A DNA stretch of 25,387 nucleotides from a virus, in the IMG/VR virus record IMGVR_UViG_3300037961_002604, positions 1-25,387 of that record; one strand, 5' to 3'. The notes under the pieces were generated by a model that was given only the letters and a program-made list of their open reading frames with translations, had not been told where the DNA came from and ran no database searches. This document shows, one piece after another, positions 1,601 to 22,584 of this stretch (positions are counted from its first letter, which is position 1; the number at the start of each line of letters is the position of its first letter). The translations under genes and the position numbers were made by a program.

Positions 1601-1616
1601 GTTGCAATTTAATTAG

Positions 1617-1690
1617 TACACCTGACAGGACTCGAACCTGTGACCGTCTGCTTAGAAGGCAGATGCTCTATCCAACTGAGCTACAGGTGC
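1617..1690 (-). tRNA. tRNA-Arg(UCU)
   Basis: A full cloverleaf can be folded on the minus strand. The acceptor GCACCTG/CAGGTGT has seven pairs, the first a G-U. The D arm is GCTC..GAGC with the AGTTGG loop. The anticodon arm is TCTGC-CTTCTAA-GCAGA with anticodon TCT. The T arm is ACAGG-TTCGAGT-CCTGT. The anticodon reads AGA (and AGG by wobble), so the tRNA is Arg. No 3' CCA is encoded: the bases after the discriminator A are CTA, so CCA must be added post-transcriptionally. The gene sits between two late genes and is presumably cut out of the late mRNA. Confidence 0.96.
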
Positions 1691-17149: not shown

Positions 17150-17542
17150 TTGCAGAACACTAATAATTTAATCGAGCAGTCAGAGGACTGCGTCCGAATG
17201 TTCTACGAGTCAATCGGACAACAACCTGAATACCAAAGCAGGGATTTTGAGCACGCCATGCCCCGTATAGCTATCGGGGTAGCAATCGCAAAACGTGTCG
17301 GCAAAACCATCGCCGCCAAGGTTATGCGAAAGCACAGAACCACCATCCATCATCACGTCATGGAGCACCCAGTCAACATGTCCTCATGGGATGGGTACGC
17401 TCTGTTCTTTGAAACCGCAGAGTACACCGTGAACTCGTACATGGAGAACATATCACATGTCAATCGAATGAAATACCTGGACACAATGATTCAACAATTC
17501 ACCAAAGAGAAAACCAAAATTCAATCCACTATCAATGTCTAA
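17150..17542 (+). CDS. DnaA domain-IV-like DNA-binding protein (130 aa)
   Basis: The first 80 residues follow the C-terminal DNA-binding domain of the replication initiator DnaA. An N-terminal helix (LIEQSEDCVRMFYESIG) comes first, then helix PRIAIGVAIAKRVG (38-51), then an HTH ending in HRTTIHHHV (62-70), which aligns with the DnaA signature DHTTVLHA. There is no AAA+ ATPase domain, so this is a stand-alone DNA-binding module. The start is TTG at 17150. The first in-frame ATG (17198) would remove a conserved-looking helix. It heads the replication cluster and overlaps the annealing gene by 8 nt. Roles could be origin recognition, repression or hijacking host DnaA boxes. Confidence 0.6.
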   Translation: MQNTNNLIEQSEDCVRMFYESIGQQPEYQSRDFEHAMPRIAIGVAIAKRVGKTIAAKVMRKHRTTIHHHVMEHPVNMSSWDGYALFFETAEYTVNSYMENISHVNRMKYLDTMIQQFTKEKTKIQSTINV

Positions 17543-18065
17543 TTACAAGTTCAAGACCACGAACATCCGTGGCAAGAAGTACGTCGAAGTCAACGAGCGT
17601 ATCAAGTACCTCCGCCAGGAGGCAGCCCTGAAGAACTACAGCATCATGACTGAGTTCCCCGCACTCGACAGCGACATGTGTGTGTGCAAATGCACGATCG
17701 CCACAGAACAGGGCAAGATTGTAGCTACAGGTCACGCTCACGAGGAGCGTGGTTCATCCAACATCAACAAGACAAGCTATGTCGAAAACTGCGAAACCTC
17801 AGCCGTCGGACGCGCGTTGGCATTCCTCGGAATCGGAATCGACACGTCTATTGCGTCAGCTAATGAAGTCCAAGATGCTATTGCAAAGCAAGAGCAACCC
17901 GCCTCGACCAAGGCGGACGCCCCTGTGGAGAACATCATGGACAAAGCTGTGAACTACATCAAGTCACAGACCGACAAGCAGAAGGCGTTTGACTCCATCT
18001 ACAGCAAGTACAAGGACCAACTGACCGACAAGCAAGTTGCTGGTCTTAAAAAGTTCGTGCGATGA
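17535..18065 (+). CDS. Single-strand DNA annealing protein, Rad52/ERF-like (176 aa)
   Basis: A likely recombination mediator that pairs complementary single strands. The core carries KTTNIRGKKYVEVNERIKYL near the N-terminus, the strand-rich CKCTIATEQGKIVATGHAHE (51-70) and the diagnostic NKTSYVENCETSAVGRALAF segment followed by LGIGIDTS (78-104). This segment resembles that of Sak/ERF/DUF1071-type phage annealing proteins. The C-terminus (120-176) is a charged linker and a helical bundle. It is followed by a coupled HTH gene and then a RecE-like exonuclease, the usual exonuclease plus annealase pairing. The exact family needs a profile search. Confidence 0.68.
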   Translation: MSNYKFKTTNIRGKKYVEVNERIKYLRQEAALKNYSIMTEFPALDSDMCVCKCTIATEQGKIVATGHAHEERGSSNINKTSYVENCETSAVGRALAFLGIGIDTSIASANEVQDAIAKQEQPASTKADAPVENIMDKAVNYIKSQTDKQKAFDSIYSKYKDQLTDKQVAGLKKFVR

Positions 18066-18289
18066 ACATGTTTATCTTCGGATTCTTAGTCGGTTGTATC
18101 GCCACGCTCGCAGTCTCAGGCATCGTGCTTGAGCTGCGGCAGCGGCAACGCGACACAAACAATCGTTACAAGTATCAGCATCGCATCCCACAGGTTCGAA
18201 GCCTTCGTATGACTGGCTTGTCTGTGCGCGAAATTTCAAAACGCACAGGAATCCCCAAGTCAACCGTTCACAACTACTTGAATGATTAA
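18062..18289 (+). CDS. Membrane-anchored HTH protein (75 aa)
   Basis: Residues about 3-25 (MFIFGFLVGCIATLAVSGIV) form one clear transmembrane helix. A basic linker follows (RQRQRDTNNRYKYQHR). Residues about 45-73 then form a resolvase/Hin-type HTH (LRMTGLSVREISKRTGIPKS, then TVHNYL). The ATG overlaps the annealing protein's stop (ATGA), so the membrane segment is truly encoded and not a wrong start. It lies between annealase and exonuclease and overlaps the latter by 8 nt. It might tether phage DNA, an origin or a transcription site to the inner membrane. No known family is recognised for the fusion. Confidence 0.75.
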   Translation: MNMFIFGFLVGCIATLAVSGIVLELRQRQRDTNNRYKYQHRIPQVRSLRMTGLSVREISKRTGIPKSTVHNYLND

Positions 18290-19070
18290 CATTCCTGACG
18301 CTCTACAAGAGCGATACAACAAACCACACTTGTCGTACTCATCCCTGAAGGTGGCACTCACCGACATGGCCAAGTTCGACCAGTACATGAAGGGCGAGCT
18401 GAAGTTTGAGTCACCTGCACTCACCTTCGGCACCCTCTACGACATGCTTCTCTTTGAGCGTGACAAGGCATTCGACACCTACTCGGTAGTATCGGATGAG
18501 GCTGTGCTCGACAACTGCTCTGACAAGACCCGTTCTTCCAAGCGACCTAAGCTCACGAAGGAGTACAAGGAGATGCAGAAGTACTTGATCGACGTAGCTG
18601 CAGAGCAAGGCAAGACCCTCTGTTCTCCTGCTGACTGGAAGATGGCCAACCAGATGATTGACCGCCTCGAACGTTGTGGGCTTGTTGACAAATACCTGTC
18701 CTCTAAGAAGTACCAAGTTGAGTTCAACGAACAGCTTGGGCCAATCAGAGTGAAGGGGTTCCTTGACTGCCTCGGTGACGGGTTCATCGTAGATAGCAAG
18801 TCCACCAAGGCTGTAGACAAGTTTCGCTACAGCGTCCGTGACTTCTGCTACGACATCCAAGCCTACATCTACTGCAAGGTGTTTGGTGTCAAGAAGTTCT
18901 ACTGGCTAGTCCAAGAGAAGACCTATCCGTATCTACCTGCAGTGGTAGAGTGTTCAGATGAAACCTTGTTCACTGGTGAGATGAAATTCAACGATGCCAT
19001 CGAGCGCATCACAGGGTTCCTCGAAGGTGGCAAACAACCTGACCAAGACTATGTCGAATTCAAAGTTTGA
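18282..19070 (+). CDS. RecE/YqaJ-like PD-(D/E)XK exonuclease (262 aa)
   Basis: A probable 5'-3' double-strand exonuclease that makes single strands for the annealing protein. Features in order: HLSYSSLK (16-23) near the N-terminus; ALTFGTLYDMLLFE (46-59), typical of RecE and PDDEXK_1 nucleases; E149 in VEFNE; GFLD with D162; the D171-S-K173 catalytic pair (FIVDSKST); and the Q-motif DIQAYIY (191-197). So the E…D…DxK…Q set is complete. It overlaps the membrane HTH gene upstream and a micro membrane ORF downstream. The class is firm, while RecE against a Cas4-like branch is less certain. Confidence 0.82.
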   Translation: MINIPDALQERYNKPHLSYSSLKVALTDMAKFDQYMKGELKFESPALTFGTLYDMLLFERDKAFDTYSVVSDEAVLDNCSDKTRSSKRPKLTKEYKEMQKYLIDVAAEQGKTLCSPADWKMANQMIDRLERCGLVDKYLSSKKYQVEFNEQLGPIRVKGFLDCLGDGFIVDSKSTKAVDKFRYSVRDFCYDIQAYIYCKVFGVKKFYWLVQEKTYPYLPAVVECSDETLFTGEMKFNDAIERITGFLEGGKQPDQDYVEFKV

Positions 19071-19170
19071 CGGGCTTATCAAAGCCGCACTCCCAGGAAC
19101 AGTGCTGTTCCTACTCTACACATTTTCAATAACTATTTTTTCTTACATCCTAAATTTTATTACATCATGA
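19051..19170 (+). CDS. Micro membrane protein (39 aa)
   Basis: A 39-residue ORF: a short polar start (MSNSKFDGLIKAALPG), then a hydrophobic span of about 20 residues (TVLFLLYTFSITIFSYILNF). It begins 20 nt inside the exonuclease gene and ends in an ATGA overlap with the SSB-like gene. Without it there would be a 96-nt gap in an otherwise gapless chain. It may be a single-span peptide that keeps replication proteins at the membrane together with the HTH protein, but this is conjecture. Confidence 0.5.
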   Translation: MSNSKFDGLIKAALPGTVLFLLYTFSITIFSYILNFITS

Positions 19171-19475
19171 GCGATCAGAAGTATGATTCCGTTCTCGTCG
19201 GTTGGGCCGACGACCCCAAGTTGAATGACAACGGCGAAGTGCAGTCTTGGACTGTGCGTCTCAAAGACCACGAGTTGAAAGACATGCTCGATCAGTATGT
19301 CACATCTCGTAACGAGCAAGGTCACGGCGGCAACGTCTACGTAACTTTGTTCATGTCCAAGAACGGCAAGGCATGTGCTCGCGTCTTCAATCCTAACAGC
19401 GAAGCTGCCAAGGAGAAGCGTGCGGCTAAGGCAAACAGCAATGCAGAGCAAGAGTCTGCAGACCTGCCCTTCTAA
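19167..19475 (+). CDS. Putative single-stranded DNA-binding protein (102 aa)
   Basis: The protein ends in SADLPF, very like the acidic C-terminal tip (DDDIPF) by which bacterial SSB recruits partners. Before it lies a charged flexible linker (SEAAKEKRAAKANSNAEQE). The N-terminal 75 residues have the strand-rich pattern expected of a small OB-like fold (SVLVGWADDPKLNDNGEVQS, VYVTLFMSKNGKACARVF), but no certain family signature. Position between the exonuclease and primase-helicase fits a phage SSB coating replication and recombination intermediates. The tip could also be used to recruit host SSB-binding proteins. Confidence 0.6.
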   Translation: MSDQKYDSVLVGWADDPKLNDNGEVQSWTVRLKDHELKDMLDQYVTSRNEQGHGGNVYVTLFMSKNGKACARVFNPNSEAAKEKRAAKANSNAEQESADLPF

Positions 19476-20027: not shown

Positions 20028-20332
20028 ATCCATCAGACAGACAAGAGGGCGGAGAACATTACAACATGCCCATCCAGCCCACCGAGTTCATCTTCAAGAA
20101 CGGCATCCCGTTTATTGAGGGCAACATCATCAAGTACGTTACACGACACCGCCAGAAGAATGGGGCGGAGGACATCCTGAAAGCCATTCACTACTTAGAA
20201 CTCATCCTTGAATACGACTACAATGAAAGTGACATTCTTCAAAAACGTCTTCGACAAGAACGCCCCGCACCATGTCAGCGTTTCGACTGCCCTCGACAGG
20301 ATCAAGAAGGGCCAATCGAAAACCACGATTGA
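20024..20332 (+). CDS. DUF3310 family protein with out-of-frame tail (102 aa)
   Basis: Residues about 8-66 match DUF3310, a small helical phage protein often found among nucleotide-metabolism genes: GGEHYNMPIQPTEFIFKNGI, then GNIIKYVTRHRQKNGAEDIL and KAIHYLELILEY. The function is not established, though relation to MazG-like helices has been suggested for similar proteins. The domain is complete by about residue 68. The remaining 34 residues (NESDILQKRLRQERPAPCQR…) overlap the primase gene in another frame and look like out-of-frame translation of it. The 110-nt overlap is unusual here. Confidence 0.78.
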   Translation: MNPSDRQEGGEHYNMPIQPTEFIFKNGIPFIEGNIIKYVTRHRQKNGAEDILKAIHYLELILEYDYNESDILQKRLRQERPAPCQRFDCPRQDQEGPIENHD

Positions 20333-22076
20333 TGCGGTACGCTCTGGCAACAAAGACGCCAAGAAGAAACTTCCTGTCGTATGCTTTAGCGGTGAGTTTG
20401 CATCGCGTGCAGACGATGCTCTATTCGAGCACAGCAGTCTCCTTGTTCTGGACTTCGATCACATTGATGTTGCTCAGGCCAAAGGCGCGTTGGCTACGGA
20501 TGATTACGTCTATAGCTGCTGGGTTTCACCGAGTGGTGATGGCCTCAAGGCTCTGGTAAAAGTCACGAACCCTGAGCGTCATCGCGATCACTTCCGTGCC
20601 CTCCGTACCTACTTCCACAAGCAATACGACCTGGAGGTTGACGAGTCAGGTGTCAATGAGTCACGGGCTTGCTTTGAGTCCTACGACCCAGACCTGATCC
20701 TGAACCCCGAGTCTAAAGCGTTCGGTGCCTTCGCCTCTGAGAAGAGCGAGAAGCCACAGGAAGCCAAGGTAGGAGAGTTCACGGACTATATGAAGCTGAA
20801 CCTCGCTTGCCGTATGGTGCGGCAAGCTGAGGAAGGAGAGAAGCACGCTGCCCTGTTGAAAGCGTCTAAGCTCGTCGGTGGTTACATCTCTGCAGGACGT
20901 CTCGAAGAAGAGGAGGCTGTTCGTGTTCTCTTCCGTGAGATCTGCAAGCGTGACATCGATAGTGAGGACGCCGCCATGACCACGATCCGTCAGGCCATCG
21001 AGGTGGGCAAGCGACTACCAATCCGTGCGGTCATCGACAACGAGCAAGAAGCACAGCGTGAACTGCTCATCAACGACGGTGACATGTCCTTCATCTCTTC
21101 GGACGACGAGGACTTCAGGTGGATTGACGACTACGCCAACGGCAAGATCCCTGTGGGATTGAGTACTGGCGATGACAGACTGGACGACTTCTTCCGTTAC
21201 AAGAAGGAGTTCCTAATTATGAACGGCCATTCCAATGTAGGTAAGACTACGTTTGCACTCTACATGATGGTGAACTCAGCCGTGCGTCACGGGTGGAAGT
21301 GGGTTGTGTACTCCTCGGAGAACCGAACCGCATCCTTGAAGATGTCGCTCATGCAGTTCGCTGTCAACCGTAGGATCGCAGACATGAACTACGATCAACG
21401 GAAGGCCGCTTACAAGTGGGTCAACGAGCACTTCACGGTCATTAGCAACAACCAGGTGTACTCGTACTCAGACATCATTGTCTTCCTTGAGAAGATCGTG
21501 CGTCAGCAGGACTGCGATGCTGTGTTTGTCGATCCATACAACAGTCTGAAGATTGAGCTTACAGGTAATGGGAGTTCCCACGACTACCATTACCAAGCGG
21601 CTTCAGAGTTCTTGACGTTCTCTACAACCAACGACGTAGCGGTGTGGCTCAACATGCACGCTGTGACTGAGGCACAGAGACGTAAGGGTGATGATGGCTT
21701 GCCCGTGGCACCATTCGCAGAGGACACCGAAGGTGGTGGTAAGTTCGTCAATCGAGCTGACTGCTTCATCACAGTCCACCGCAAGGTGCAGGCGCCAGAC
21801 CACAACATCAAGAAGACAACGGAGTTGCATATTCGTAAGGTCCGAGAGACAGAGACAGGAGGACAGCCTACCTCGTTTGACGACCCAATCACCTTCACAA
21901 TGAACACAGCACACACAGCCTTCCGTATCAACACGACGGGCAAAGAGCTGTTCCAAAGCATTGACAAGGAGTTTGATAACTACGAAAAGTTCAACATGCC
22001 CACTAACATTGACTTCTTTGGAAAATCCGCTGTAACTTCACATAGTGAAGCGACAAACGAAGAGATCTTCTCGTAA
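20223..22076 (+). CDS. Bifunctional primase-helicase: VirE-N/BT4734-type primase + DnaB-like helicase (617 aa)
   Basis: This is the replicative primase joined to its helicase. The N-terminal part (about 1-165) is a BT4734/VirE-N archaeo-eukaryotic-type primase. It has VVCFSGEF, then the metal pair D77-F-D79 in LLVLDFDHI, SPSGDGLKALV (102-112) and NESRACFESYDPDLILNP (145-162). A helical linker (180-270) leads to a RecA/DnaB-like ATPase. Walker A is GHSNVGKT (335-342), Walker B is VFVDPYN (D437), with the LNMHAVTEAQRRKG loop and RADCFITVHR beyond. The ATG at 20223 is preferred over an upstream TTG. The fusion is frequent in Bacteroidetes elements. It is coupled to nuclease genes downstream. Confidence 0.88.
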   Translation: MKVTFFKNVFDKNAPHHVSVSTALDRIKKGQSKTTIDAVRSGNKDAKKKLPVVCFSGEFASRADDALFEHSSLLVLDFDHIDVAQAKGALATDDYVYSCWVSPSGDGLKALVKVTNPERHRDHFRALRTYFHKQYDLEVDESGVNESRACFESYDPDLILNPESKAFGAFASEKSEKPQEAKVGEFTDYMKLNLACRMVRQAEEGEKHAALLKASKLVGGYISAGRLEEEEAVRVLFREICKRDIDSEDAAMTTIRQAIEVGKRLPIRAVIDNEQEAQRELLINDGDMSFISSDDEDFRWIDDYANGKIPVGLSTGDDRLDDFFRYKKEFLIMNGHSNVGKTTFALYMMVNSAVRHGWKWVVYSSENRTASLKMSLMQFAVNRRIADMNYDQRKAAYKWVNEHFTVISNNQVYSYSDIIVFLEKIVRQQDCDAVFVDPYNSLKIELTGNGSSHDYHYQAASEFLTFSTTNDVAVWLNMHAVTEAQRRKGDDGLPVAPFAEDTEGGGKFVNRADCFITVHRKVQAPDHNIKKTTELHIRKVRETETGGQPTSFDDPITFTMNTAHTAFRINTTGKELFQSIDKEFDNYEKFNMPTNIDFFGKSAVTSHSEATNEEIFS

Positions 22077-22584
22077 GGGGAGTTCGAAGAAGAAGGAGTT
22101 AGGGAAGTACAAGAGTGGTTTAGAGAAGACTTGCGGTAGCTTACTCGCTGAATCGGGCCTAGATTTTGCCTATGAGGAACACGAGTATGAGATCATGCCC
22201 AAGTTTTGGTACCCGCAGACGTATTGGAAGATGACCCCTAAATCAAAGGGGCTCATCGACAAAACAAACAAAGTGGTGCTACCGATCAAATACACTCCTG
22301 ACTTCGTAGCTAAAGACGGAAGCTGGATTATCGAGACGAAAGGGTACATCCATTCGCACCATGATTTCCCCATGAGGTGGAAGCTGTTCATGGACTACCT
22401 GATGAAACTTGGCGAACCACTTCCGATGCTTTTCATCTGTCGCAACAAACGACAAATTGAACAAGCTATCTATATTATCAAACAAACTAAGAAGGATGAA
22501 GAAGCCAATTCCTATCGAAGAGCTAGGCAGACTGTACGGCGTCGCGCAAGAAAGAATGCAGGAGACCATCACGAACTACTGTGA
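22045..22584 (+). CDS. T7 endonuclease I-like Holliday junction resolvase (179 aa)
   Basis: This is a PD-(D/E)XK resolvase that cuts branched DNA before packaging. The catalytic set of T7 endonuclease I is present: E27 in SGLEKTCGSLLAESGLDFAY, D86 in YTPDFVAK, and E97-T-K99 in SWIIETKGY. A very basic N-terminus (MKRQTKRSSRKGSSKKK) may bind DNA. The start is GTG at 22045, inside the end of the primase-helicase gene. The next in-frame ATG would remove the catalytic E27. The last 29 residues overlap the following gene out of frame and look non-native. Confidence 0.85.
   Translation: MKRQTKRSSRKGSSKKKELGKYKSGLEKTCGSLLAESGLDFAYEEHEYEIMPKFWYPQTYWKMTPKSKGLIDKTNKVVLPIKYTPDFVAKDGSWIIETKGYIHSHHDFPMRWKLFMDYLMKLGEPLPMLFICRNKRQIEQAIYIIKQTKKDEEANSYRRARQTVRRRARKNAGDHHELL

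Follow-up and report, generated by a model that had tools for sequence, protein, structure and literature searches.

A gene in a marine phage, for a protein of 75 aa, joins a hydrophobic N-terminal helix, through a basic linker, to a small helix-turn-helix (HTH) domain, and it lies in a recombination/replication operon, where it overlaps the gene of a predicted single-strand-annealing protein on one side and that of a predicted exonuclease on the other. The gene is real, purifying selection acts on both of its modules, and in related phages the same place in the operon (hereafter the slot) has repeatedly come to hold DNA-binding domains joined to putative membrane helices. The window, that is, the whole stretch of DNA analysed, comprises 25,387 bases of virus record IMGVR_UViG_3300037961_002604 with a G+C content of 49%, and its source is a marine phage.

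The reading that we put first, at slightly under an even chance, is that the protein keeps phage DNA, together with recombination proteins, attached to the inner membrane in a manner resembling p16.7 of phage phi29. Wider and more doubtful is the possibility that marine tailed phages have repeatedly fused DNA-binding domains (HTH, alpha-CTD and possibly winged HTH) to membrane helices beside a Rad52-type annealing gene, and have kept a micro membrane protein beside the exonuclease, the whole forming a so far unrecognised platform at the membrane on which Red-type recombination and recombination-dependent replication would take place. New here is the anchoring of DNA-binding domains in this slot more than once, from exchangeable parts and next to a near-universal micro membrane gene. 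To our knowledge, little has been established about where in the cell phage DNA replicates and recombines, except for phi29 and a few other models. A small tether between annealing and exonuclease genes, in what appear to be at least three architectures, would offer a simple system in which to test directly whether phages recombine their DNA at the membrane. The micro membrane gene would provide a second and broader handle on this question, and natural single-helix tethers for DNA-binding domains are on offer.

Operon context of the predicted tether gene

Fold and profile evidence makes the assignment of the operon to recombination and replication well founded (Table 1). The tether gene shares the ATGA at 18062-18065 with the annealing gene, whose TGA stop occupies 18063-18065, and its 3′ end overlaps the exonuclease gene (start 18282) by 8 nt. 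Promoter-like sequences are not in excess in this region (8 found versus 6.7 in shuffles).

Table 1. Genes of the operon and parts of the tether protein, with positions in the window
Feature	Position	Strand	Evidence or remark
Annealing-protein gene (predicted), 176 aa	17535-18065	+	Adjoins tether gene on upstream side
Membrane-tethered HTH gene (predicted), 75 aa, ATG start	18062-18289	+	ORF, profiles, conservation, selection, AlphaFold2
Hydrophobic helix, about residues 3-23	18068-18130	+	Hydropathy, conservation, selection, flank charge, model
Basic, fast-changing linker, about residues 24-37	18131-18172	+	Codon differences versus L001
Three-helix HTH without wing	18173-18286	+	Pfam HTH_IclR, selection, model helices 39-50, 55-62, 66-74
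Putative PDDEXK exonuclease gene (DUF3799; exonuclease VIII-like)	18282-19070	+	Pfam, PHROG
Micro membrane protein gene (predicted), 39 aa	19051-19170	+	Conserved position in relatives
Putative ssDNA-binding protein gene, 102 aa, ends ...ADLPF	19167-19475	+	Position, C-terminal tip
Primase-helicase-like gene, further downstream	20208-22076	+	Pfam BT4734-like_N 5.2e-21, DnaB_C 1.2e-9

The protein encoded upstream gave no Pfam match of note and matched phrog_11717, a family without annotated function, at 4.5e-37. Its AlphaFold2 model, built from 39 sequences, reached a mean pLDDT of 81; Foldseek alone returned no significant match for this model, and structural alignment to human RAD52 (8rjw_G) gave a Z of 8.9 with an rmsd of 3.9 over 101 residues. 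Since the 14 best rows of the structural alignment were all RAD52, yeast Mgm101 or phage Sak, and since a far homologue in MW202512 had been labelled ‘mgM101-like’ by its depositor, the protein is assigned to the Rad52 family as a predicted single-strand-annealing protein of the Rad52/Mgm101/Sak fold, the model showing a Rad52-type fold at a modest Z. The downstream product, with matches to Pfam DUF3799 (4.9e-19) and to phrog_412, exonuclease VIII (4.1e-40), is a PDDEXK nuclease of exonuclease VIII-like type. The putative ssDNA-binding protein owes its name to its position and C-terminal end, with no credible match to it in Pfam, PHROG or NCBIfam.

Architecture and selection of the predicted tether protein

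The sequence-only reading had described 75 residues in which an N-terminal transmembrane helix is followed by a basic linker and then by an HTH, and hydropathy, conservation, Pfam and AlphaFold2 all bear this out. The best 19-residue Kyte-Doolittle mean is 2.45, at residue 5, a value attained by 6 of 20,000 shuffles of the protein's own residues. A hydropathy of at least 2.12 occurs in 11 of the 122 window ORFs of at least 60 aa (the tether ORF counted), mostly antisense, and because the antisense ORFs of the window are often as hydrophobic, hydropathy alone is little proof of a membrane part. The membrane segment is judged real because it is conserved among relatives: seven distinct proteins, the window's included, combine one transmembrane helix with the HTH (1TM-HTH), and all of them keep the segment, with G7, G11, A17, I21 and E24 invariant and the first two of these in GxxxG spacing within the helix. 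The ATGA-coupled start, on which the earlier reading had relied for the membrane start, is likewise conserved in 7/7. The charge flanking the helix is 0 before and +3 after, from which the positive-inside rule would predict an N-out, C-in topology. In the AlphaFold2 model (mean pLDDT 78.9) a helix spans residues 2-36 and is followed by three others at 39-50, 55-62 and 66-74.

Pfam HTH_IclR matched the protein with E=1.4e-7 (31.6 bits against a cut-off of 22) over residues 50-74 only, and the resolvase family HTH_7 matched it at 8.4e-4, under the cut-off, and its relative L092 at 3.4e-7, over it. A profile match above the curated cut-off, together with a helix-turn-helix in the model (55-62, 66-74), places the domain in the HTH superfamily. 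Serine recombinases of the gamma-delta resolvase/Hin type have a similarly small three-helix HTH, but they carry a catalytic domain where the tether protein has its membrane helix, and Pfam found no serine recombinase catalytic domain in the 75 residues.

Codon differences from L001, an 85%-identical relative of the window, are distributed unevenly over the gene. The helix has 4 synonymous and 3 non-synonymous differences, each of the latter replacing one hydrophobic residue with another; the linker has 3 synonymous and 8 non-synonymous differences in 15 codons; and the HTH, the most conserved region of the protein, has 10 synonymous and 0 non-synonymous. In a second pair, L010/L030, dN is 0.12 and dS 0.61. 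Purifying selection on both ends with a free linker points to two selected modules joined together, and a membrane anchor with a cytoplasmic nucleic-acid-binding domain is what sequence and model predict.

Close to where the helix ends, 5/7 of the one-helix members have in-frame ATG or GTG codons (GTG codon 22 in the window, ATG codon 21 in L001), and in L010 and L030 the first internal start past the helix is ATG codon 34. The positions of these internal starts are not conserved, and an additional soluble HTH product could arise from them.

Matches beyond the related loci were confined to the HTH or were weak. In tblastn against 50,697 phage records, the 75-aa protein matched 25 records, mostly over HTH-sized stretches and with E of 0.04 to 0.9, among them rIIB proteins of Aeromonas phages (weak, E 0.2-0.7). 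In bacterial and archaeal genomes 16 loci matched the HTH piece (in L175 residues 26-73, weakly), all of them without this tether. The fold search of viral and PDB libraries gave no significant match; the top Foldseek rows were resolvase chains, non-significant at E 0.33 and 0.50, and resolvase chains also came up in the profile search, at 0.15. Phage HK578 gp45, taken from its length to be the fold match K7P814, was set aside, as it has no membrane segment. The p16.7 protein of phi29 has a homeodomain-like fold and a coiled coil. Its structures 1zae, 2bnk and 2c5r are not among the 27 PDB sequences found at E ≤1 with a seven-sequence profile, and its family is absent from the 25 best of the 30 Pfam rows for the tether protein. 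A search confined to open-access literature yielded no description of the tether protein.

The slot between annealing and exonuclease genes in related phages

Two scans of IMG/VR, one with the annealing protein and one with the exonuclease, gave 80 loci each; both genes were present in 147 sources, of which 114 had unique intervals, and 106 distinct exonucleases were placed on a tree and serve as slot rows. All fractions below refer to loci picked for similarity to the genes of the window and are not representative of phages at large.

The contents of the slot vary widely, with many unrelated small proteins. It is empty in 25/106 rows and holds soluble or unrecognised proteins in 62/106, ‘soluble’ being assigned by hand from hydropathy to slots of at least 60 nt without a recognised membrane protein (L045, without an ORF of 45 aa, is counted here), and profiles being run on only 13 of the slot proteins that belong neither to the tethered set nor to a two-helix class. 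A membrane protein of any kind occurs in 19/106 rows: a one-helix HTH protein in six, a two-helix protein together with a one-helix HTH protein in one, a two-helix protein alone in four or with a soluble protein in four, another two-helix protein in one, a two-helix part fused to the HTH in two and a one-helix alpha-CTD protein in one. DNA-binding domains are thus tethered in 10/106, and the slot is a variable accessory place in which most non-empty rows hold apparently soluble proteins.

Homologues beginning after the hydrophobic segment had been named as evidence that would count against a membrane fusion, and none was seen. When all ORFs of 181 loci were searched, 9/9 distinct proteins with strong matches to the HTH profile (E <1e-17) had an N-terminal hydrophobic segment, although the profile was made from the same nine proteins and their strong scores follow by construction; the next matches, at E 1e-12 and weaker, were other proteins without this tether. 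Nor did the HTH prove poorly conserved, as the codon differences above make plain.

The one-helix HTH rows fall in one subclade of the exonuclease tree, which also contains L007 and L098 with empty slots. The one-helix family profile found no copy in the 59.7-kb contig of L007 and one weak, HTH-only match in the 5-kb contig of L098. In the other main clade, L002 and L027 carry the same HTH on an unrelated two-helix membrane part, which also exists alone in other phages; a profile made from 1TM-HTH proteins only found L002 at 9.1e-12 and L027 at 1.2e-9, in both through positions 35-73 alone. A stand-alone two-helix protein lies beside the one-helix HTH protein in the slots of L004 (3457-3842) and L005. 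At a third place in the tree, L068, a single contig, has a hydrophobic helix followed by RNA_pol_A_CTD (PF03118, 2.6e-12), that is, the same slot and the same plan of tether and DNA-binder with a different DNA-binding fold. The slot protein of L061 has the RNA polymerase alpha-CTD domain without a membrane helix, and that of L019 is a soluble winged HTH. L061 (2460-2879) and L068 (2429-2749) thus provide phage-encoded proteins with an RNA polymerase alpha-CTD domain in the same slot.

The tethered state requires at least five changes on the exonuclease tree, with three architectures in different parts of it, and tethered DNA-binding domains appear to have arisen in the slot in at least three architectures, namely 1TM-HTH, 2TM-HTH and 1TM with alpha-CTD. 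By the positive-inside rule, the DNA-binding domain would be cytoplasmic in every tethered case. All nine tethered genes that directly follow the annealing gene (those of the window, L001, L010, L030, L088, L092, L002, L027 and L068) overlap it through ATGA; the tenth, that of L004, is preceded by another membrane gene. Common ancestry of the L068 helix and the window-type helices is not supported, the tether profile giving L068 an E of 2, like unrelated sequences, and because of this score a swap of domains on one tether is not claimed.

A possible fourth architecture comes from the cultured Bacillus phage vB_BhaS-171, in which BhaS171_00045 (85 aa) lies directly after the annealing-protein homologue. 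Like the window protein it combines an HTH with one hydrophobic helix, but in reversed order, with the HTH, of winged type by a weak profile, first and the helix last, and both parts are weak (HTH_24 at 0.0019, under the cut-off, with a depositor's note of HTH_ARSR; Kyte-Doolittle 1.75).

A micro membrane gene beside the exonuclease gene

The second micro membrane ORF, which the earlier reading had pointed out one gene further on, is also confirmed: its protein is identical in L001, and the gene differs there by 2 synonymous codon changes. An ORF spans the interval from the exonuclease to the next gene in 112/114 cases and is hydrophobic in 101/114, against 315 of 2280 shuffles (14%), and when the exonucleases were clustered at 85% identity, a hydrophobic spanning ORF remained in 37/44 compared with 119/880 shuffled. 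The 13 intervals that failed comprise nine with a less hydrophobic ORF, two with a hydrophilic one (L137, L142) and two with none (L095, L096), and L095 has a shorter hydrophobic ORF despite failing the spanning test. In relatives the micro protein is 24-50 aa long, its gene usually overlaps one or both of the adjoining genes, and in each of three groups that were compared the third codon positions of the gene change most often. A micro membrane gene is near-universal in the operon among these relatives, and it is possibly of wider importance than the tether gene.

Pelagibacter phage HTVC028P and its relatives have a similar gene, which overlaps the annealing gene from upstream, and the corresponding 73-aa gene of MW202512 is not hydrophobic. 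Cyanophages KBS-S-2A and MED4-184, far relatives by their exonucleases, have no micro membrane gene beside the exonuclease and no tethered HTH nearby. A set of 80 far annealing-protein loci, of which 67 had a usable gene, included 25 with a small hydrophobic ORF no more than three genes away. Many of these ORFs are unconvincing, and no tethered HTH was seen by eye among those listed.

Possible function and alternative explanations

In the mechanism that we propose, the N-terminal helix would lie in the inner membrane with its N terminus out and its C terminus in, perhaps dimerising through the GxxxG motif, and the cytoplasmic HTH would bind phage DNA. Phage DNA and the annealing/exonuclease machinery, encoded on the same mRNA, would be kept at the membrane during recombination-linked replication, and the near-universal micro membrane protein would probably serve the same membrane-associated machinery. 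Architecture, selection, ATGA overlaps, neighbouring genes, repeated architectures and the micro membrane protein are the evidence counted for tethering, and the repeated combination of anchor and DNA-binder in the slot suggests that holding DNA at the membrane is useful to these phages. Against it, the slot is accessory, L007 lacks the gene, the slot proteins of L061 and L019 are soluble, the cyanophage relatives have neither the micro gene nor a tethered HTH, and internal starts could yield a soluble HTH. Because the alpha-CTD of L061 has no helix and the winged HTH of L019 is soluble, tethering would not be required of every slot protein. The sequence-only reading had suggested that replication or recombination complexes are anchored to the inner membrane. 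This suggestion is supported in part: a real, conserved fusion in a recombination/replication operon speaks for it and the accessory state of the gene against it, and the data are compatible with such anchoring.

A precedent for the principle is p16.7, which phi29 itself encodes and which is described as small, integral to the membrane, able to bind nucleic acid through one of its parts and tied to phi29 DNA replication (PMC4974454, PMC11476376). The tether protein is predicted to share this plan but has no detectable sequence relation to p16.7, and whereas p16.7 works with protein-primed replication and a terminal protein, the flanking genes in the window encode an exonuclease and an annealing protein with a predicted Rad52 fold.

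The strongest rival, absent from the earlier reading and in our view unlikely though well worth weighing, is an exclusion factor resembling AbiP and PdpSau, an anchored nucleic-acid binder carried as accessory cargo that would stop replication of a competing phage or alter membrane permeability. AbiP of Lactococcus is credited in the PdpSau paper with a transmembrane domain and one that binds DNA, and PdpSau of S. aureus prophages, which halts the DNA replication of other phages, has an N-terminal membrane helix and a predicted OB fold. Such a role fits well with an accessory, variable slot and with the plan of N-terminal tether and nucleic-acid-binding domain that these proteins share with ours. 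PdpSau, however, is a larger protein of 278 aa whose OB fold contrasts with the HTH of about 40 residues found here, and the gene context is also different, the tether gene overlapping a recombination gene at either end and not standing apart as a separately expressed moron. In PADLOC, a collection expected to include an AbiP model, 0/8 proteins, the window's included, matched an Abi model at E ≤0.1, and the weak PADLOC matches of these eight were HTH-only or alpha-CTD-like stretches.

Somewhat less probable is the third reading, a membrane-bound regulator of the one-component type that would control transcription of genes of the phage or its host, and whose tether would restrict it to DNA near the membrane or sense a signal. 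The small HTH is most like those of regulators and the DNA-binding domains of recombinases, and a soluble form could come from an internal start, but the protein has no sensor domain, promoter-like sequences show no excess, and in L068 the same slot holds an RNA-polymerase alpha-CTD and not a repressor HTH. Sequence alone cannot separate the tether, exclusion and regulator readings.

Less probable still is an accessory role in counter-defence or host takeover, with DNA or a membrane complex of the host as the target: the fast-changing slot with its many unrelated small proteins would suit it, yet the HTH is strongly conserved and not fast-evolving, and PADLOC and Pfam give no lead to a target. 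We give very little credence to the idea that the hydrophobic N terminus results from misannotation and that a soluble HTH begun at an internal codon does the work. The in-frame starts near the helix end speak for it, but they are not conserved in position, all seven distinct members keep both the ATGA start and a hydrophobic segment with its invariant residues, and L002 and L027 carry an unrelated two-helix membrane part instead.

Other genes of the window and related loci

A tRNA-Arg gene (anticodon tct) lies at 1616-1690 (-) of the window, and the gene after the primase-helicase-like gene (22045-22584) is endonuclease I-like, with a Pfam match to Phage_endo_I at 6.3e-7. The gene before the annealing gene (window 17150-17542) has an RTTIHHH-like stretch reminiscent of the DNA-binding domain of DnaA, and its homologue in L002 (4759-5247) matches Bac_DnaA_C only at 0.049. 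The slots of L041, L052-L054, L057 and L074 hold a protein of 192-195 aa with conserved GELALEKLL...GVKTV stretches, nuclease-like by eye and with no credible Pfam match in L054 and L041. In L127 (2483-2890), L149 (54-461) and L151 (3035-3436), the products of the upstream genes contain two stretches resembling an HTH and share a conserved C terminus, FSLFWGA/FKLFWGA.
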